A stretch of DNA of 36,928 nt from Candidatus Stoquefichus massiliensis AP9 (lineage in GTDB: Bacteria > Bacillota_I > Bacilli_A > Erysipelotrichales > Coprobacillaceae): assembly GCF_000455285.1 (NCBI RefSeq), contig NZ_HG005284.1:146908-183835 (forward strand). The letters run 5' to 3'. The notes under the pieces are model-generated. The model was not told where the DNA came from, did not search any database, and was given only the letters and a program-made list of their open reading frames with translations. The position numbers were made by a program, and so were the translations under genes. The first letter of the stretch is position 1; each line of letters opens with the position of its first letter. This document shows, piece by piece, positions 2,489 to 25,539 of the stretch.

Positions 2489-3775
2489 CTAATTTTTCTC
2501 TTCAGATTCAAGTTTTAATTGTTGTGTATCCATAATCTTTACAAATGGATAATAGACAATACAACTCAATACACACATAAGAACAATAAATATACCAAAT
2601 CCAATACCTCCACTAGCTAAGAACCCAAGAATTGGTCCTGGAATAAAACTTGTTGCCATAGTTAATGGCGTTGTAAATAACTGAAGTTTCATACCAAAAT
2701 ACATTAAGATATACGAAATAACGGGTAAAAGTACAAATGGTAATAATAATGTAAAGTTTAAAACTATTGGCAAACCATATACTACAGGTTCAATGACATT
2801 AAATAATCCTGGCACCAATTGTAACTTACCTTGTGTTTTATATCTTTCAGATTTTGTAAAAAAAGCCATATCTATAAATAACCCAAACAAGCAACCTGGG
2901 CCTCCAACCATTTGTATAATAGCCATAATTGACATCATAGTTAATAAATTTGGAGCGGCCATACCAGAAGCAACAGCTGCAATATTTTCTTGTAATGGTG
3001 CAGTCCCTAAAACCATTATCACAGGCATAATAATCATTGAACCATGTAGCCCTAGCCACCATAATAAGCTACAAAGTATTAATAAAACCAAATGACCTGT
3101 TAAACTATTTCCAATTCCAGTTAATGGTGCTTGAATAACCGTATTAATAAATGGAGTAAATCCACCATATGGAGTCAATCCAAATAAAACGCGTAATGCT
3201 ATGAATGGTACAAGTGTAATCACAAAACCTGGAATATTTTCAAAACTTTGTGAAACAAATGGTGGTACAGATGCAGGCATCTTAATTCTCAAAGGGGTTT
3301 TAGATAATTTCATAAATAAAACTCCTGCACATACTGAAACAATCATACTTGTAATAATTCCTTGAGCTCCTAAGTTTTCAAGCCCAACTGAATAAGCATT
3401 ACCATAATCTCCAACAACTGTTGTGAGAGGTGTAACAATTAAAAATGAAAATAATGCAATAATTCCTCCTTCAACAGGATTTTTTGCTCCCATCTTTTCA
3501 GAAATAACACGTCCAATTCCAAATGAAATAAACAAACCTGTACAAGTTGCTATTTGAACAATTTCACTTAATGGCACCATTAATCCTGTATCTTTAAGAA
3601 AATTTATCCATGGTGTAATTGGCAAGTTTATTAAAATATTAATAATTGCTGACCCCATTAAAATAGGCATTGTTGACATCATACCCTGAGTAATAGAACT
3701 CACTACAAGATTATTTTGAAATTTTCCTGCAATTTTCATAATCTTTGTTGTAAAACTTTGATTTACTGCTTTCAT
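2489..3775 (-). CDS. PTS lactose/cellobiose-family EIIC permease
   Basis: This 428-residue integral membrane protein is the sugar-translocating subunit of a lactose/cellobiose (Chb/Cel) type phosphotransferase system. It has about ten hydrophobic segments and the family landmarks VPPFVSQSFENIPGFV, WWLGLHGSMIIMPV (near residue 245) and FNVIEPVVYGLPIVLN. It would import a beta-linked disaccharide or beta-glucoside while EIIB phosphorylates it. The frame is open to an ATG at 3805, inside the EIIB gene, but GGAGGGA sits eight bases before the ATG at 3775, which I take as the start. It lies between EIIB upstream and the GH1 enzyme downstream in the same transcript, which ties uptake to hydrolysis. 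Confidence 0.93.
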   Translation of the reverse strand: MKAVNQSFTTKIMKIAGKFQNNLVVSSITQGMMSTMPILMGSAIINILINLPITPWINFLKDTGLMVPLSEIVQIATCTGLFISFGIGRVISEKMGAKNPVEGGIIALFSFLIVTPLTTVVGDYGNAYSVGLENLGAQGIITSMIVSVCAGVLFMKLSKTPLRIKMPASVPPFVSQSFENIPGFVITLVPFIALRVLFGLTPYGGFTPFINTVIQAPLTGIGNSLTGHLVLLILCSLLWWLGLHGSMIIMPVIMVLGTAPLQENIAAVASGMAAPNLLTMMSIMAIIQMVGGPGCLFGLFIDMAFFTKSERYKTQGKLQLVPGLFNVIEPVVYGLPIVLNFTLLLPFVLLPVISYILMYFGMKLQLFTTPLTMATSFIPGPILGFLASGGIGFGIFIVLMCVLSCIVYYPFVKIMDTQQLKLESEEKN

Positions 3776-3788
3776 ATATCTTTCCCTC

Positions 3789-4097
3789 CTACCAACTAAA
3801 CTCATTTAATAACTTACTAAAAATATTTTTAGCATTCATTGTCCCATAATCCATCATAGAAATAAGTCTTACTGGAATATCAGAAAACTGTTTCTTGACT
3901 TCATCTTCCATATAACAGACTTGAGGACCTAGTAAAATCACATCACTACCAATTGCTACAGGATTTAATGCATTTGTTGCATAAGCTTTACACTCAACTT
4001 CAAATCCATTACTTTTTCCTTCTTCAATAATACGATCACATAAAATACTTGTTGATACTCCACCAACACATGCGAGAGTTATTTTTAGTTTTCTCAT
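3789..4097 (-). CDS. PTS lactose/cellobiose-family EIIB subunit
   Basis: This soluble subunit of about 102 aa passes phosphate from EIIA to the incoming sugar. The phospho-cysteine loop is seen at the N-terminus in TLACVGGVSTSIL, and the family pattern continues with DVILLGPQVCYME and MMDYGTMNAKNI. The ATG at 4106 directly abuts AAGGAG; the ATG at 4097 (MRKLKITLAC) has that ribosome site nine bases away and is the better start. The gene ends 13 bases before the preferred EIIC start and is followed in order by EIIC, GH1 and the epimerase. EIIA precedes it by 63 bases, so a complete lactose-type PTS is encoded here. Confidence 0.93.
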   Translation of the reverse strand: MRKLKITLACVGGVSTSILCDRIIEEGKSNGFEVECKAYATNALNPVAIGSDVILLGPQVCYMEDEVKKQFSDIPVRLISMMDYGTMNAKNIFSKLLNEFSW

Positions 4098-4469: not shown

Positions 4470-4530
4470 TATATTCCCTCCATTGACACTTATATTTTAA
4501 CAATAATAATCTGTTTTTGATATCTCTATA

Positions 4531-4552
4531 TTTACCGCTTTCAAAACGTACC
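4531..4552 (-). promoter_or_regulatory. Operator-like element, copy A, upstream of PTS EIIA
   Basis: On the minus strand this reads GTTTTGAAAGCGGTAAA preceded by GGTAC. The same core recurs at 4631-4651 and 7345-7368. It lies about 60 bases before the EIIA start codon. The adjacent regulator is a LicR-type PRD activator, and that family generally binds inverted repeats near the -35 region of its target, so this is the obvious candidate site. Bases 4530-4543 also match a CcpA cre consensus at 12 of 14 positions, so catabolite control is an alternative reading. Confidence 0.5.
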
Positions 4553-4630
4553 TTTTATACCAATATCAAAGACTGTCTGACACATGATATTCCATATTAC
4601 ACCACTATTTTGGTGAATTTTACTATAAGA

Positions 4631-4651
4631 TTTACCACTATCAAAACAAAC
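4631..4651 (-). promoter_or_regulatory. Operator-like element, copy B, upstream of PTS EIIA
   Basis: On the minus strand the core is GTTTTGATAGTGGTAAA, identical to copy A at 15 of 17 positions, and 100 bases further upstream. Between the two is a short perfect inverted repeat CACCA-N6-TGGTG (4600-4615), whose left half shares ACCACTAT with copy B. Binding by the PRD regulator is inferred from repetition and position only. Confidence 0.5.
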
Positions 4652-4658
4652 TTTTCAT

Positions 4659-4688
4659 AAAAAAAGGAGAGCACGTAACTCTACCTTT
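4659..4688 (-). terminator. Rho-independent terminator after the tandem EIIB gene
   Basis: Directly after the TAA at 4690, the minus strand forms a stem AAAGG(T)AGAG / CTCTCCTTT with a seven-base loop and one bulged T, followed by a run of seven T. It separates the regulator/tandem-EIIB transcript from the PTS structural genes, which implies that the latter have their own promoter in 4470-4658. Confidence 0.8.
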
Positions 4689-4689
4689 C

Positions 4690-5334
4690 TTAATCCTCTA
4701 TAATACGATATTCTTGTAAATTTGTAATTATACAACCCAATATTTCTTCTACATTCATACATCCATAATCTTTTGTATCAATAATATAAATTGGTTTATT
4801 ATGAATTAAATCTCTTATATTTTCACTCATATAAAAAACTTGTGGACCAAGAACATATATATCATAATCATTATAATTTGAATAAATCTTACTGACTGCA
4901 AAAGCATCACATTCAAGTAAATAACCTTGTTTTTTTGCTTCTTCTACAATTAAGTCTTTTAAAATATAACTAGATAGTCCTGACATGCAGAATAAAGCCA
5001 TATGAATGACTTTTTTATTATGTTCTATTTTTATAGCTTTATTTTTCATATATTCTCTTACTGATTGCATTGTCGAAAATCCATCCATAGATCCATAAAC
5101 AACATTATTAATTAAGAAACACTCTGTTTTCGCATTCACACATTGTTCTTTAATAGCATCATACATAAAAGAAATTTGTGGAGCAACTAATACAATATCA
5201 AATTTTTCAATCAATATTGGTAATTTCCCAATACTTATTGCTTCAATATATTCATCGTCTAAAGCATGCTCTAACATACTTTGAACCATAATACTGGTCG
5301 AAATACCACTACTACATACAATTAATATTCGCAT
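4690..5334 (-). CDS. Tandem double PTS EIIB (lactose/cellobiose-type) protein
   Basis: This 214-residue protein consists of two lactose/cellobiose EIIB domains in a row. Domain 1 (about 1-95) has ILIVCSSGISTSIM with the phospho-Cys at C7, then VLVAPQISFMYD and VVYGSMDGF. Domain 2 (about 108-205) has MALFCMSGLSSYIL with C116, then YVLGPQVFYMSE and KDYGCMNVEEI. Both catalytic cysteines are kept, but the P-loops and spacing differ from each other and from the ordinary EIIB at 3789. The gene starts inside the last codons of the PRD regulator gene (13-base overlap) behind GGAGGGA, and ends at a terminator. Coupling to the regulator rather than to EIIC suggests a signalling or phosphate-shuttling role; a true transport role cannot be excluded. 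Confidence 0.85.
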   Translation of the reverse strand: MRILIVCSSGISTSIMVQSMLEHALDDEYIEAISIGKLPILIEKFDIVLVAPQISFMYDAIKEQCVNAKTECFLINNVVYGSMDGFSTMQSVREYMKNKAIKIEHNKKVIHMALFCMSGLSSYILKDLIVEEAKKQGYLLECDAFAVSKIYSNYNDYDIYVLGPQVFYMSENIRDLIHNKPIYIIDTKDYGCMNVEEILGCIITNLQEYRIIED

Positions 5335-7226
5335 GAATCTCCCTCCAAAATGCTAATCAAAGTTTCATAATTTTGATGAAATAATAATCTTTGTATCTTA
5401 TTTTTATCTAATATCAACTGTGATGTTTTTTTATATAAATCTTGCATATCCTTTTCAATTTCACTATTTACAGAAATCAAGATAACAATCTGAACATCTC
5501 TGTTTCCCCAAAAAATAGGTTTATCTAATATTCCAACAGATACAAAAGCAAAATCTGTATTTAATCCATAAGGATGTGCTAATGCCACTGACTCACCAAA
5601 ATCAGTTGGTGCAAATGATTCTCTTTTCAATACTGCATTGGTAAATTGAGATGGTAATTCTATATGATTTCCAACGAGTTTACATAATTCTATAATAACT
5701 TGTTCCTTAGATTCTGCTTTAATATTTGTATAAAATAATTCTTCTTTAAAGTACTTTTTTATTTCAAAAAGAGAGTTTTGTTTAAACTTTTGTTTTAAAA
5801 ACACTTCTTCTTCATCTGAAAGCAGCGTTTTGACTCTTAAAATAGGAACTGGTATTTCATCATAAATAGGTGTTGTTGTCACAACGTAATCAATCAATGA
5901 AAAATCTTGTTTTGATAATTCATTCATATTACAAATACTAACCTTATTTAGATATGTTCCAAATAATTCTTGATATTGATAAGCTAATAACTCAGCTAAT
6001 GTTTTACCTGTTGCACAAACAATTAAAATATTCTTTTTTTTAATTTGATTTAATGATCTTAAAGAAACTTCAAATATAAGAGCAAGATATCCTATTTCAT
6101 CTTCTCTAAGACAAGTTTGATATTTATTATCAATACAAATTTTTGCTTGTGATGCTAATGTATATCCTAAAGCATATTTCTTTTTAATATCACTGATAGA
6201 TGGATTTTTTAAATTCAAATGATATTTTATACGTACTTCCAACGATACCATATGTATTGCTAAATTCATAATGATCCCTAAGTTTTTACTCATATCTATA
6301 TTTAAAGTCAATTTTATAAATTGCAAAATATCAATAACTAAATCATATACTTCTTGCGAAATAACAACATTTGTTTTTCCTAAACCCACTTTTTCTGTAA
6401 CACGATGCCCAAATAAATGAATAGCTAATGAAAAAATCTCTGTGTCCAAAAAAACAATATCAAATATTTCTTCTAATTTATGACATATATTTTTAGATAA
6501 TATCTCACATAAGTTATCATCATGTATTTTCAAAGTATTGTCCTTCTCATCAATACAACATCCTTCTTTAATCCTTACAATTGCCATATATAAATGTTGT
6601 GTCATATTCTCTAATGATAATTCTGACATGGAAATATTATATTCATTTAAAGAATCAATTAATACTTTAGAAATTTGTTTTTTCATTTCACTATCATTTT
6701 GTTCTTTATAAAAATCATAACTATAATTTACCATAAAGATTCTTAAATCAAATTCTAACCCTTTCATCTTTATGCCCTTGTTTTTCCTATAAATGAGTTT
6801 TAAATGATAAATGCCTAATATCTTTTTTATTTTATTGATATCAGATTGCAACGTTGATTCACTAATACATAAATAATCTAATAAATCTTCAATAGGAACA
6901 AAATCATTTGTCATAATCATTTTTGATAAAATATAATGACATCTTTCTTCTGAATTCTCAGGTAATCTCTTTTCATCAATAAATAATCCATTATTTTCAT
7001 GTGAATAAATTGTAGAAAAAAGTTTAGAATCAATAATACTCAATCTATACCCATAACCATGTTTAGATTCAATCCTTGCCCCATACTGCTGAATAATTTG
7101 AGATAAACTTCTTAAATAATTTCTTACAGTTTTCTCACTAATAAGTGCTTTTTCACCTAAAAGTTTTGCAGTAACGTATTTTTCAGTTGATAAATTATAA
7201 AGTAGTATATTGTGTATTCTATTCAT
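5322..7226 (-). CDS. LicR/BglG-family PRD transcriptional activator with EIIB and EIIA domains
   Basis: This 634-residue multidomain regulator is close in size to B. subtilis LicR. Visible domains: an N-terminal winged helix (about 5-62), a second HTH (about 95-155), PRD1 (about 165-280, His211 and His270), PRD2 (about 290-395, His325), a GatB-like EIIB domain (about 398-480, Cys404 in LIVCATGKT) and an EIIA-2 (fructose/mannitol) domain (about 495-630, His551 in VALAHP). PTS phosphorylation of these sites normally tunes activation of the cognate PTS operon. The second PRD2 His is replaced: DEIGYLALIFEVSL has Ile384 where the family has His. The start ATG has only a weak ribosome site. A shared operator-like motif lies upstream and before the PTS genes, which suggests it controls both. 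Confidence 0.9.
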   Translation of the reverse strand: MNRIHNILLYNLSTEKYVTAKLLGEKALISEKTVRNYLRSLSQIIQQYGARIESKHGYGYRLSIIDSKLFSTIYSHENNGLFIDEKRLPENSEERCHYILSKMIMTNDFVPIEDLLDYLCISESTLQSDINKIKKILGIYHLKLIYRKNKGIKMKGLEFDLRIFMVNYSYDFYKEQNDSEMKKQISKVLIDSLNEYNISMSELSLENMTQHLYMAIVRIKEGCCIDEKDNTLKIHDDNLCEILSKNICHKLEEIFDIVFLDTEIFSLAIHLFGHRVTEKVGLGKTNVVISQEVYDLVIDILQFIKLTLNIDMSKNLGIIMNLAIHMVSLEVRIKYHLNLKNPSISDIKKKYALGYTLASQAKICIDNKYQTCLREDEIGYLALIFEVSLRSLNQIKKKNILIVCATGKTLAELLAYQYQELFGTYLNKVSICNMNELSKQDFSLIDYVVTTTPIYDEIPVPILRVKTLLSDEEEVFLKQKFKQNSLFEIKKYFKEELFYTNIKAESKEQVIIELCKLVGNHIELPSQFTNAVLKRESFAPTDFGESVALAHPYGLNTDFAFVSVGILDKPIFWGNRDVQIVILISVNSEIEKDMQDLYKKTSQLILDKNKIQRLLFHQNYETLISILEGDSCEY

Positions 7227-7344: not shown

Positions 7345-7368
7345 TTTTACCACTTTAAAACGGTAAAA
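7345..7368 (-). promoter_or_regulatory. Palindromic operator-like element, copy C, upstream of the PRD regulator
   Basis: This is a perfect inverted repeat TTTTACC-N10-GGTAAAA. Its interior matches copies A and B (4531, 4631), except that it is one base shorter: GTTTTAAAGTGGTAAA on the minus strand. It sits 119 bases before the regulator start and just past the stop of the cardiolipin synthase gene. No hairpin-plus-T-run terminator signature accompanies it, so an operator is favoured over a terminator. Confidence 0.5.
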
Positions 7369-22711: not shown

Positions 22712-22740
22712 TAAGAAAAAACTCATCACAGATGAGTTTA
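22712..22740 (-). terminator. Rho-independent terminator after the second EIIC gene
   Basis: The stem AACTCATC / GATGAGTT has a three-base loop and, on the minus strand, runs into six T. The TAA of the EIIC gene lies at its base. Confidence 0.9.
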
Positions 22741-24105
22741 TTCAACCATTGCAGCTTGTTTATTTTGATATCTTTCATAAAAGATAAGAAATGGTGTATA
22801 AATAAGAATACAACATCCAAAACAAATCAATTGTGTAATTGCTCCTGTTATACTTCCTCCAGTTGCAATGAAACCAAATAATATTGGTGGTGTTGTCCAA
22901 GGTGCCTCAATGACAATTGGATGACAAAATCCAATTGTGATAAGGAAATATCCAATGAGAAGGCTTGCCATTGGTGCTAAAATAAATGGAATCCCAAGAA
23001 TTGGATTTAAAACCATCGGTATACCAAATACCACTGTCTCATTAATATTAAATAATCCTGGAATGAGTGATAAAGAAGCAATGGCTCTATTATCTTCTCT
23101 TTTCCCAAAGATAAAGATAGCAGCCACCAAAGCTCCAGTAATACCTGAACCAGTCATTTCTCCAAACATTTGTAAGAATGTCACATTAATTGTATGGTAA
23201 CCAGATTTTGCTCCCTCTTGAAACATTGTCATATTTGCGATTAACAGTGGTCTAAAGAATGGATCTTTAACTGCTGAAATCATATTTGCACCATGAATAC
23301 CCACTAGCCAAAACAAAGAAACAAGCAAGTATAGGAATAATACAGCAATAATATTTTCCCCAACGATACCCATTAATGGTCCTTGAATATAAGTACTGAT
23401 TAAATCATTTAAATATAACCCTGTAGCTAAATAAATAAAATGACCAACAGCTCCAACTATAACTAGCATAATACAAGCTGGAATTAAAACTTCAAAAGCT
23501 CGCATAACTCCAGGTGGAACTTGATCAGGCATCTTAATTTTCAATGAATCCTGTTTTCTTAAGAAACCAAAAACTTCCATTGCAACAATCCCAACAATTA
23601 AGGCTGTAAATAGACCTGTAGCACCTAAATAACTTGAACCAATTCCAGTAAATGTTGTCATTGATTCACTTCCACCAGGTAAAACTGCTCCATTCGAAAT
23701 AATGTTTTTTCCTTCACTACTTACACTTTGCCAAAAATAGAAATTTGTTGGCGTAACAACTAACCATGAAATAAAAGATAAAACTGTAGGGAAAGCCCCT
23801 GTCTCTCCATTTGCTTCAGCAATTTCATGCCCCACAAGCATAACGATACCTACAGAAATACATGAGATTGTTGCAAAGTTAATAGCATTAAAAATTGGAT
23901 TAAGAAATTCTAATGCCATAATTGGTGACCAAACTTGACCTAATCCTGTATCAGCATTAACCAATACATTAGACCAAAGAACACCAATAGCACCAGCAAT
24001 TGTAGCTGGCATAAAATTTTGGAACGCATTTTTAATGGCACCTAAATACTTGTTTTGTCCGCACCACGCTCCAACACGTCCTAGCTTATCAGCAAAAGCA
24101 TCCAT
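22738..24105 (-). CDS. PTS lactose/cellobiose-family EIIC permease (second system)
   Basis: This 455-residue membrane permease has the Cel/Chb-type landmarks VPPGVMRAFEVLIPACIM, WLVGIHGANMISAV and LFNINETVVFGIPMVLNPILGIPF. The N-terminal segment up to about residue 30 is amphipathic, as is usual. GGGAGG lies seven bases before the ATG. It follows the RpiR regulator gene by 126 bases on the same strand, with EIIB further upstream, so the order is EIIB, RpiR, EIIC. No EIIA and no adjacent hydrolase gene accompany it; the nearest hydrolase is the GH4 enzyme 3.8 kb upstream. The specificity cannot be read from the sequence. Confidence 0.93.
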   Translation of the reverse strand: MDAFADKLGRVGAWCGQNKYLGAIKNAFQNFMPATIAGAIGVLWSNVLVNADTGLGQVWSPIMALEFLNPIFNAINFATISCISVGIVMLVGHEIAEANGETGAFPTVLSFISWLVVTPTNFYFWQSVSSEGKNIISNGAVLPGGSESMTTFTGIGSSYLGATGLFTALIVGIVAMEVFGFLRKQDSLKIKMPDQVPPGVMRAFEVLIPACIMLVIVGAVGHFIYLATGLYLNDLISTYIQGPLMGIVGENIIAVLFLYLLVSLFWLVGIHGANMISAVKDPFFRPLLIANMTMFQEGAKSGYHTINVTFLQMFGEMTGSGITGALVAAIFIFGKREDNRAIASLSLIPGLFNINETVVFGIPMVLNPILGIPFILAPMASLLIGYFLITIGFCHPIVIEAPWTTPPILFGFIATGGSITGAITQLICFGCCILIYTPFLIFYERYQNKQAAMVE

Positions 24106-24231: not shown

Positions 24232-25020
24232 TTAATCACTCTTATTTTGAAACTTACCTTTTAAAAGCATATAAATAAGATTAACAATATATTCACCTGT
24301 AAATAAATCTATCATGACATCTGTATGATCAATTTGATTTGTAAAAAAAATCAAATGATCATCACATAAATCAATTATTTTATTCTCTTTACAACCTAAT
24401 ATAGAAACAATATAATTCTTTTGCTTTGATAAAGTTTGTACAATATTATAAATAGCTGGATTTTTCCCTGATAATCCAAATACTATTGAAACATTCCTTT
24501 GATCCCTCTTATGAACATAATGAATATTTAATACATCATGAAATGTACATTGTAAGCCAAGTGATTGAAGTTTAAATACCAACTGCCTCCCTAAAACACT
24601 TGATATCCCTATAGCATAGACATCAATCGAGGATGCACTCAATAAACGATTACATATTCTTATAACAACATTCTTATCTAACAGTATATTCGTTTTCACC
24701 AAAGATAAAGCATACATCTTTGAAATCAATGATTTCACTTCTTCATAATCTGACATATAATTTTCTGATTCTTCAAATGCAATATCATCAATCTTAAAAT
24801 ATTCATTTCTTTCTAAAATTAATTGTGAAATAAACTCTCGATAAGATTGAAAACCTAATTTCTTATATAATCTCATAACTGTAGATTGTGAAGTATAACT
24901 TCTTTTTGCAAGCTCAACACTCGTCATTGCTAATTCATTATTCTTATCAAGAATATAGTATCCAATCTGTTTTTCTGATTCTGTCAGTTCTTTTTCATCA
25001 ATCAATCTTTCTATAATCAT
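24232..25020 (-). CDS. RpiR/MurR-family transcriptional regulator
   Basis: This 262-residue regulator has an N-terminal RpiR-type helix-turn-helix (about 1-75: LTESEKQIGYYILDKNNELAMTSVELAKRSYTSQSTVMRLYKKLGFQSYREF) and a C-terminal SIS sugar-phosphate-binding domain (about 105-240: IDVYAIGISSVLGRQLVFKLQSLG, then SIVFGLSGKNPAIYNIVQTL). SIS domains sense phospho-sugars, so it probably responds to the product of the second PTS. It lies between that system's EIIB and EIIC genes. Autoregulation and control of the neighbouring EIIC and EIIB, and perhaps of the GH4 gene, are inferred. Confidence 0.92.
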   Translation of the reverse strand: MIIERLIDEKELTESEKQIGYYILDKNNELAMTSVELAKRSYTSQSTVMRLYKKLGFQSYREFISQLILERNEYFKIDDIAFEESENYMSDYEEVKSLISKMYALSLVKTNILLDKNVVIRICNRLLSASSIDVYAIGISSVLGRQLVFKLQSLGLQCTFHDVLNIHYVHKRDQRNVSIVFGLSGKNPAIYNIVQTLSKQKNYIVSILGCKENKIIDLCDDHLIFFTNQIDHTDVMIDLFTGEYIVNLIYMLLKGKFQNKSD

Positions 25021-25215: not shown

Positions 25216-25539
25216 CTAGATGTCTTTATGATAAAAATCTTTATACATCTCGATAGCTTTCTCTAAAACCTTTTTTCCATTCATCATCCCATAATCACGC
25301 ATATCAATAACATCATAAGGCACTTTCCCCTCACATACTTTCCGAATATTTCCTAACGCATATCTGACTTGTGGTCCCAAAAGCAGGACATCAAATTTCC
25401 CCATATATTCTTCTATATTTTTCTCTGGACCTGCTTCTACACTCACATCAAGATTTTGTTTTTGAGCTTCTTCCTGCATTCTTAACATAAGGAGACTTGT
25501 TGACATTCCTCCTGCACAAACCAATAAAATTCTTACCAT
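25216..25539 (-). CDS. PTS lactose/cellobiose-family EIIB subunit (second system)
   Basis: This 107-residue EIIB has the phospho-Cys loop ILLVCAGGMSTSLLML (C8), then VLLLGPQVRYALGNI and DMRDYGMMNGKKVLEKA. AAGGAGG at ideal spacing supports the start. It presumably works with the EIIC at 22738, from which it is separated by the RpiR gene, and needs an EIIA from elsewhere, possibly the one at 4161. It begins a minus-strand set whose promoter should lie in the 250-base gap 25540-25790. Confidence 0.93.
   Translation of the reverse strand: MVRILLVCAGGMSTSLLMLRMQEEAQKQNLDVSVEAGPEKNIEEYMGKFDVLLLGPQVRYALGNIRKVCEGKVPYDVIDMRDYGMMNGKKVLEKAIEMYKDFYHKDI

Follow-up and report, generated by a model that had tools for sequence, protein, structure and literature searches.

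The PTS locus and its didomain EIIB

The window is the whole stretch of 36,928 nucleotides that was analysed, from Candidatus Stoquefichus massiliensis AP9, and all coordinates of its features are counted from its first letter. It holds a phosphotransferase system (PTS) locus whose genes all read on the reverse strand. A LicR/MtlR-type PRD regulator (5322–7226), in which Pfam recognizes HTH_11, an Mga HTH, two PRDs, and EIIA_2, is followed by the gene for P0001 (4690–5334), a reading frame of 214 residues with an ATG start. Downstream of P0001, in the same direction, lie an EIIA of the lactose/cellobiose family (P0004, 4161–4469; Pfam PTS_IIA, E = 9.3e-28), a freestanding EIIB (P0003, 3789–4106), an EIIC of the lactose/cellobiose family (2489–3805), and a GH1 6-phospho-beta-glucosidase-like enzyme (1007–2482), whose matches to NCBIfam subfamilies fall below the curated cut-offs. 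P0001 is thus an additional EIIB, since the operon with EIIA and EIIC has a single EIIB of its own. Elsewhere in the window a lone EIIB gene (25216–25539) stands beside an RpiR-type regulator (24232–25020), with an EIIC gene further on (22738–24105).

Two lactose/chitobiose-family EIIB domains make up P0001. Pfam finds PTS_IIB (PF02302) twice (E = 2.2e-21, 76.7 bits against a gathering score of 23.6), and structures in the PDB match the halves separately: Borrelia IIB aligns with residues 1–99 and the E. coli chitobiose IIB with residues 111–199. Domain 1 spans residues 1–100 (5035–5334, reverse strand), with the codon for Cys7 at 5314–5316; domain 2 spans residues 108–204 (4723–5013, reverse strand), with the codon for Cys116 at 4987–4989. 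The Cys loops are intact and have the form C-x-x-G-x-S in both domains, Cys7 lying in VCSSGISTS and Cys116 in FCMSGLSS, and the later motifs APQI/GPQV and YGSM/YGCM are also retained in both. An AlphaFold model, built from an alignment of only 3 sequences (mean pLDDT 78.8, pTM 0.47), shows a pair of alpha/beta domains of EIIB-like form, with a linker of low confidence between them around residues 100–106. Foldseek matched the model best to structures of IIB-chitobiose and IIB-cellobiose, with TM scores normalized to the target of 0.72–0.88. The two fused lactose-type domains, each with its own Cys, that a first-pass annotation had read from the letters are borne out by the Pfam matches, the PDB relatives of each half, and the two loops.

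Each domain of P0001 matches the lactose/chitobiose EIIBs (TIGR00853; E. coli ChbB, 1iib/1h9c; B. anthracis, 4mge) in fold, Cys loop, and length. P0001 differs from proteins of the TIGR00853 type in having two copies per chain, in scoring below the NCBIfam curated cut-off (97.2 bits against 110), and in being encoded with a regulator rather than with EIIC. The cut-off appears strict for this clade, because the freestanding P0003 likewise falls short of it (58.9 against 110). P0001 has no membrane domain, and by Pfam its domains are of the lactose family and are not fused to IIC. Judged by its domains and phosphocysteine loops, P0001 is a PTS EIIB of the lactose/cellobiose family.

Transcription units

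The first 13 nt of the P0001 gene coincide with the end of the regulator gene, which also contains a good ribosome-binding site for P0001, GGAGGGAG (5339–5346, reverse strand). Directly 3′ of the P0001 gene is a predicted intrinsic terminator, a hairpin followed by a U run (4660–4691, reverse strand; −13 kcal/mol, z = −3.6), which none of 200 shuffled sequences equaled. Between terminator and EIIA, a 30-nt direct repeat occurs in two copies that are 80% identical and spaced 100 nt apart. From the repeat and a pattern test, these copies (4630–4659 and 4530–4559, both on the reverse strand) are candidate operators of the EIIA operon. Similar palindromes (GTT-N-GGTA or GTT-N-CGGTA) occur in the related loci of G224 and G765, where they separate the regulator gene from EIIA, and in G224 a palindrome of this GTT type is also found upstream of the regulator gene. 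In the window, a related inverted repeat, TTTTACCACTTTAAAACGGTAAAA, upstream of the regulator gene (7345–7368) may be an autoregulatory operator or the terminator of a neighboring gene. A first operator pattern, allowed 3 mismatches, did no better than chance and was dropped; only the palindromes shared across species and the 30-nt repeat are relied on here.

The terminator after P0001 and the candidate operators before EIIA would place P0001 in the transcription unit of the regulator. By overlap, terminator, and repeats, the gene falls with the PRD regulator and apart from the transporter genes, as the first-pass annotation had proposed. The simplest reading is that there are two units under one regulator, the first comprising regulator and P0001, and the second EIIA, EIIB, EIIC, and GH1.

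Relatives of the didomain EIIB

A didomain profile, with which full-length didomains stand clearly apart from single EIIBs by score, was used to search about 1,000 genomes from the order, the class, the phylum, and one Lachnospiraceae family. In the large searches the best 5–15 candidates per genome were scored, and rare misses are possible. The search yielded 11 distinct didomain genes, the one in the window and 10 further genes, one of them cut by a contig edge. Among these genomes and candidates, didomain EIIBs are confined to Erysipelotrichales and one Lachnospiraceae metagenome-assembled genome (MAG). Candidate relatives on plasmids and phages were rejected as matches to single EIIBs only; in the matches to Enterococcus raffinosus plasmids, which reach 84% coverage, both halves of P0001 align to one EIIB-sized stretch.

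All 10 further didomain genes lie in PRD-regulated PTS loci, the linkage for which the first-pass annotation had suggested looking. A PRD regulator adjoins 11 of 11 didomain genes, whereas among 93 other EIIB loci 18 have one alongside (Fisher p = 1.6e-7, uncorrected for shared ancestry or ascertainment).

The relatives form two groups. The larger, which we call the ChbG clade, comprises a second locus in the same genome as the window and loci in G001, G005, G019, G022, G035, G203, and, in part, G032. The gene order is EIIC, PRD regulator, didomain EIIB, and ChbG-like deacetylase, and a small EIIA-sized gene precedes EIIC in most loci where the contig shows the region. No further EIIB was seen in these clusters. 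The active Cys of domain 1 is retained, and that of domain 2 has been lost in all seven readable didomains. In the second locus of the own genome (L009:6350–8811, contig C3), the didomain gene lies directly 3′ of another PRD regulator; this locus type, EIIA-EIIC-PRD-EIIBB-ChbG, is common to other Coprobacillaceae-like genomes.

The smaller group consists of the window and the two systems nearest to it, those of G224 (Erysipelotrichales) and G765 (the Lachnospiraceae MAG). Both Cys residues are present in all three didomains. G224 and G765 share the order PRD regulator, EIIA, didomain EIIB, and EIIC, and the didomain is their only EIIB. The EIICs of the window locus and of G224 share 60% identity, and a search of genome contigs with EIIC returned only the G224 operon and one truncated operon.

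Nine of the 10 relatives have no visible EIIB gene in the cluster other than the didomain, which must therefore serve the transporter there; the tenth is cut by a contig edge. The didomain form is thus needed as transporter EIIB in the homologous systems of G224, G765, and the ChbG clade. The claim that P0001 is not the transporter's EIIB accordingly finds no support as an inherent trait of such proteins, but it may hold in the window, where a separate EIIB is present. Consistent action of homologues as transporter EIIBs had been named in advance as the outcome that would speak against a signalling role; this largely describes the homologues but does not describe the window. The combination of a didomain with a separate EIIB is seen in the window only, that is, in one genome.

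Several other unusual EIIB arrangements were encountered. Three proteins of about 200–224 residues in the same genome combine an N-terminal domain with one EIIB-like domain (L010:7786–8460, L011:6619–7218, and L012:7102–7707) and have neither EIIC nor PRD regulator alongside. Several genomes from the same family carry, at a conserved place between phosphoesterase-like and ACT-domain-like genes, two adjoining single EIIB genes with neither EIIA nor EIIC (L147:7130–7837; also L014, L019, and L020), a possible orphan pair. In G144, a divergent PRD regulator accompanies two unfused tandem EIIB genes that precede EIIC and EIIA (L146:3433–7879), an unfused counterpart of the didomain EIIB.

Domain phylogeny and origin

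Trees were built from 95 and from 46 EIIB domains; the duplication history drawn from them rests on about 107 columns and includes one long branch. Domain 1 of P0001 pairs with domain 1 of G224 (support 100/91 and 99/90 in the two trees). Domain 2 falls in a clade with P0003 and with the second domains of G224 and G765 (100/97 and 99/97). The two domains of P0001 have thus diverged from each other, as had been noted from the sequence, to the extent that they fall into different EIIB clades. In each of these clades there are also EIIBs that stand alone in other operons linked to PRD regulators. This placement disfavors an origin of P0001 by tandem duplication within a single EIIB, with an AU test of the two domains as sisters falling short of rejection (p = 0.08).

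The end branch of domain 2 of P0001 measures 1.9–3.2, roughly tenfold the length of the P0003 branch (0.22–0.28). P0003 is 68–69% identical to domain 2 of G224. Because the short-branched P0003 is the orthologue of that domain, and domain 2 of P0001 is long-branched, the transporter job most likely lies with P0003. Domain 2 of P0001, by the same trees, is a fast-evolving paralogue of P0003 and a diverged duplicate. In relatives the gene order is PRD regulator, EIIA, EIIB(D1)-EIIB(D2), EIIC, and GH1. The best explanation is that P0001 derives from an EIIB that served the transporter of a beta-glucoside PTS under PRD control.

Proposed role of P0001

We favor, with a probability of roughly one half, the reading that P0001 takes up phosphate from EIIA and hands it to the regulator, transport being its lesser or lost role. 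The transporter EIIB would have been displaced into the transcription unit of the regulator, closed by the terminator, and its second domain would have diverged fast while retaining its Cys loop; in this genome the transporter job would be held by the freestanding, D2-type P0003. Phosphorylated EIIA would phosphorylate P0001 as it would P0003. When substrate is absent, phosphorylated P0001 would build up and phosphorylate, or dock on, the PRD, EIIB-like, or EIIA-like domains of the regulator, much as phosphorylated EIIB-Lev acts on LevR. When substrate is flowing, phosphate would drain through EIIC and the regulator would switch state. Production together with the regulator could ensure a cognate EIIB partner even with the PTS operon off, and one domain of P0001 may mainly be a docking copy, by analogy with fructose IIB′. 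We infer the phosphorylation of P0001, the regulator as its target, and the direction of the effect.

The regulator has features that suit such an input. It includes a GatB-like EIIB region with Cys404, read from the sequence, and an EIIA_2 domain with His551. This Cys and this His are invariant in 13 of 13 aligned regulators, and the PRD histidines vary: in the window Ile384 replaces the second His of PRD2, the same His is lost in the G224 and G765 regulators, and these two also lack both histidines of PRD1. Such a pattern of invariant EIIB Cys and EIIA His with variable PRD histidines fits EII-type phosphotransfer input to the regulator.

Several observations weaken the signalling reading. 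All relatives with readable context use the didomain for the transporter, and P0001 may do so too; the arrangement of didomain with separate EIIB comes from one genome only; and the fast branch of domain 2 could reflect relaxed constraint. The first of these bears on the main competing reading, somewhat unlikely in our estimate, that P0001 is an ordinary second transporter EIIB that passes phosphate from EIIA to EIIC alongside P0003, its position beside the regulator being incidental. The intact Cys loops agree with this, as does the PTS operon of G144, whose two separate adjoining EIIB genes indicate that doubled EIIBs occur in operons of transporters. However, the slowly evolving orthologue P0003 occupies the position between EIIA and EIIC, and P0001 precedes the terminator and lies outside the repeat-controlled operon.

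It is also conceivable, if rather unlikely, that the EIIB duplication split two jobs, the freestanding copy taking transport and the didomain, produced along with the regulator, becoming a dedicated soluble sensor-effector, with one domain carrying phosphate and the other docking on the regulator.

The long branch of domain 2, about tenfold that of P0003, together with the rarity of the window-type arrangement, could be taken to mean that P0001 is a decaying duplicate under relaxed selection since P0003 took over, with no distinct role. This is improbable, for despite strong divergence the gene retains a full reading frame, a ribosome-binding site, both Cys loops, and the GPQ and YG-M motifs. 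Least probable of all is the internal relay or buffer put forward in the first-pass annotation, in which phosphate moves between Cys7 and Cys116 and the store reports PTS status: the didomains of the window, G224, and G765 do have both Cys residues, but transfer from one EIIB domain to another via their Cys residues is not known to us, and the loss of the domain 2 Cys in 7 of 7 readable ChbG-clade didomains indicates that the didomain form needs no second phosphosite. The relay finds no support here.

Comparison with known systems

P0001 is analogous to the fructose IIB′B proteins but is not a member of that group. Like P0001, FruA (IIB′BC) of E. coli has a duplicated IIB in one PTS protein, and the ChbG-clade didomains resemble it further in having one copy without Cys. 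FruA, however, belongs to the fructose family and is fused to IIC, whereas P0001 is of the lactose family and has both Cys residues. For the additional fructose IIB′, a part in protein–protein contacts rather than in the transfer of phosphoryl groups has been reported (PMC6872149), and the IIB domains of E. coli FruA are required for full activity (PMC2405797).

In its domain set (HTH_11, Mga, two PRDs, GatB-like EIIB, and EIIA_2) the regulator of the window matches the LicR/MtlR/CelR-type activators, and it differs from them, with the other regulators of its clade, in the absence of the second PRD2 histidine. Phosphorylated EIIB-Lev phosphorylates LevR, and phosphorylated CelA has been proposed to phosphorylate CelR (PMC10864463). 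These systems resemble the proposed one in that a soluble EIIB is thought to bring phosphate to a PRD regulator; their EIIBs, in contrast, are single-domain proteins that double as the transporter EIIB, and the sigma54-type LevR and CelR of that work have a layout other than that of the window regulator. EIIB input to a PRD regulator is thus already established for free single EIIBs, and such a role for P0001 is not new; the earlier view that free EIIB proteins are rarely credited with it was mistaken. A further precedent is MtlR, which is reported to be tethered through its permease (PMC8560693). Another is SacX (PMC6148471): this PTS-derived protein does not sustain growth on its sugar, sucrose, and serves a PRD regulator, SacY. 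It differs from P0001 in being a membrane EII, and SacY differs from the window regulator in being an antiterminator. Overall, the divergence of the domains and the PRD linkage stand from the earlier interpretation; an inherent non-transporter role and the novelty of signalling by a free EIIB do not. The functional idea behind it is plausible, though the role is one already known for single EIIBs and the homologues mostly occupy the transporter position.

A 2019 paper states duplicated IIB for fructose EII only. In a literature search that covered few subscription papers, no description of a tandem EIIB was found, and a duplicated EIIB of the lactose family is apparently undescribed. It would correct the published claim that fructose EII alone has a duplicated IIB. 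In this gut bacterium P0001 is probably a displaced, signalling variant of a known part and not a new kind of system. If the split of jobs with a docking domain is true, P0001 would give fructose IIB′ its first counterpart in the lactose family and would show a way in which a component of a transporter can evolve into one of signalling. The ChbG clade, in which domain 2 is without Cys in all readable cases, offers a second test of a duplicated EIIB domain as a docking module. PTS regulators sense sugar flux via the phosphorylation state of EIIB; if one EIIB transports and the duplicated EIIB signals, the two functions could be mutated separately in one natural locus.
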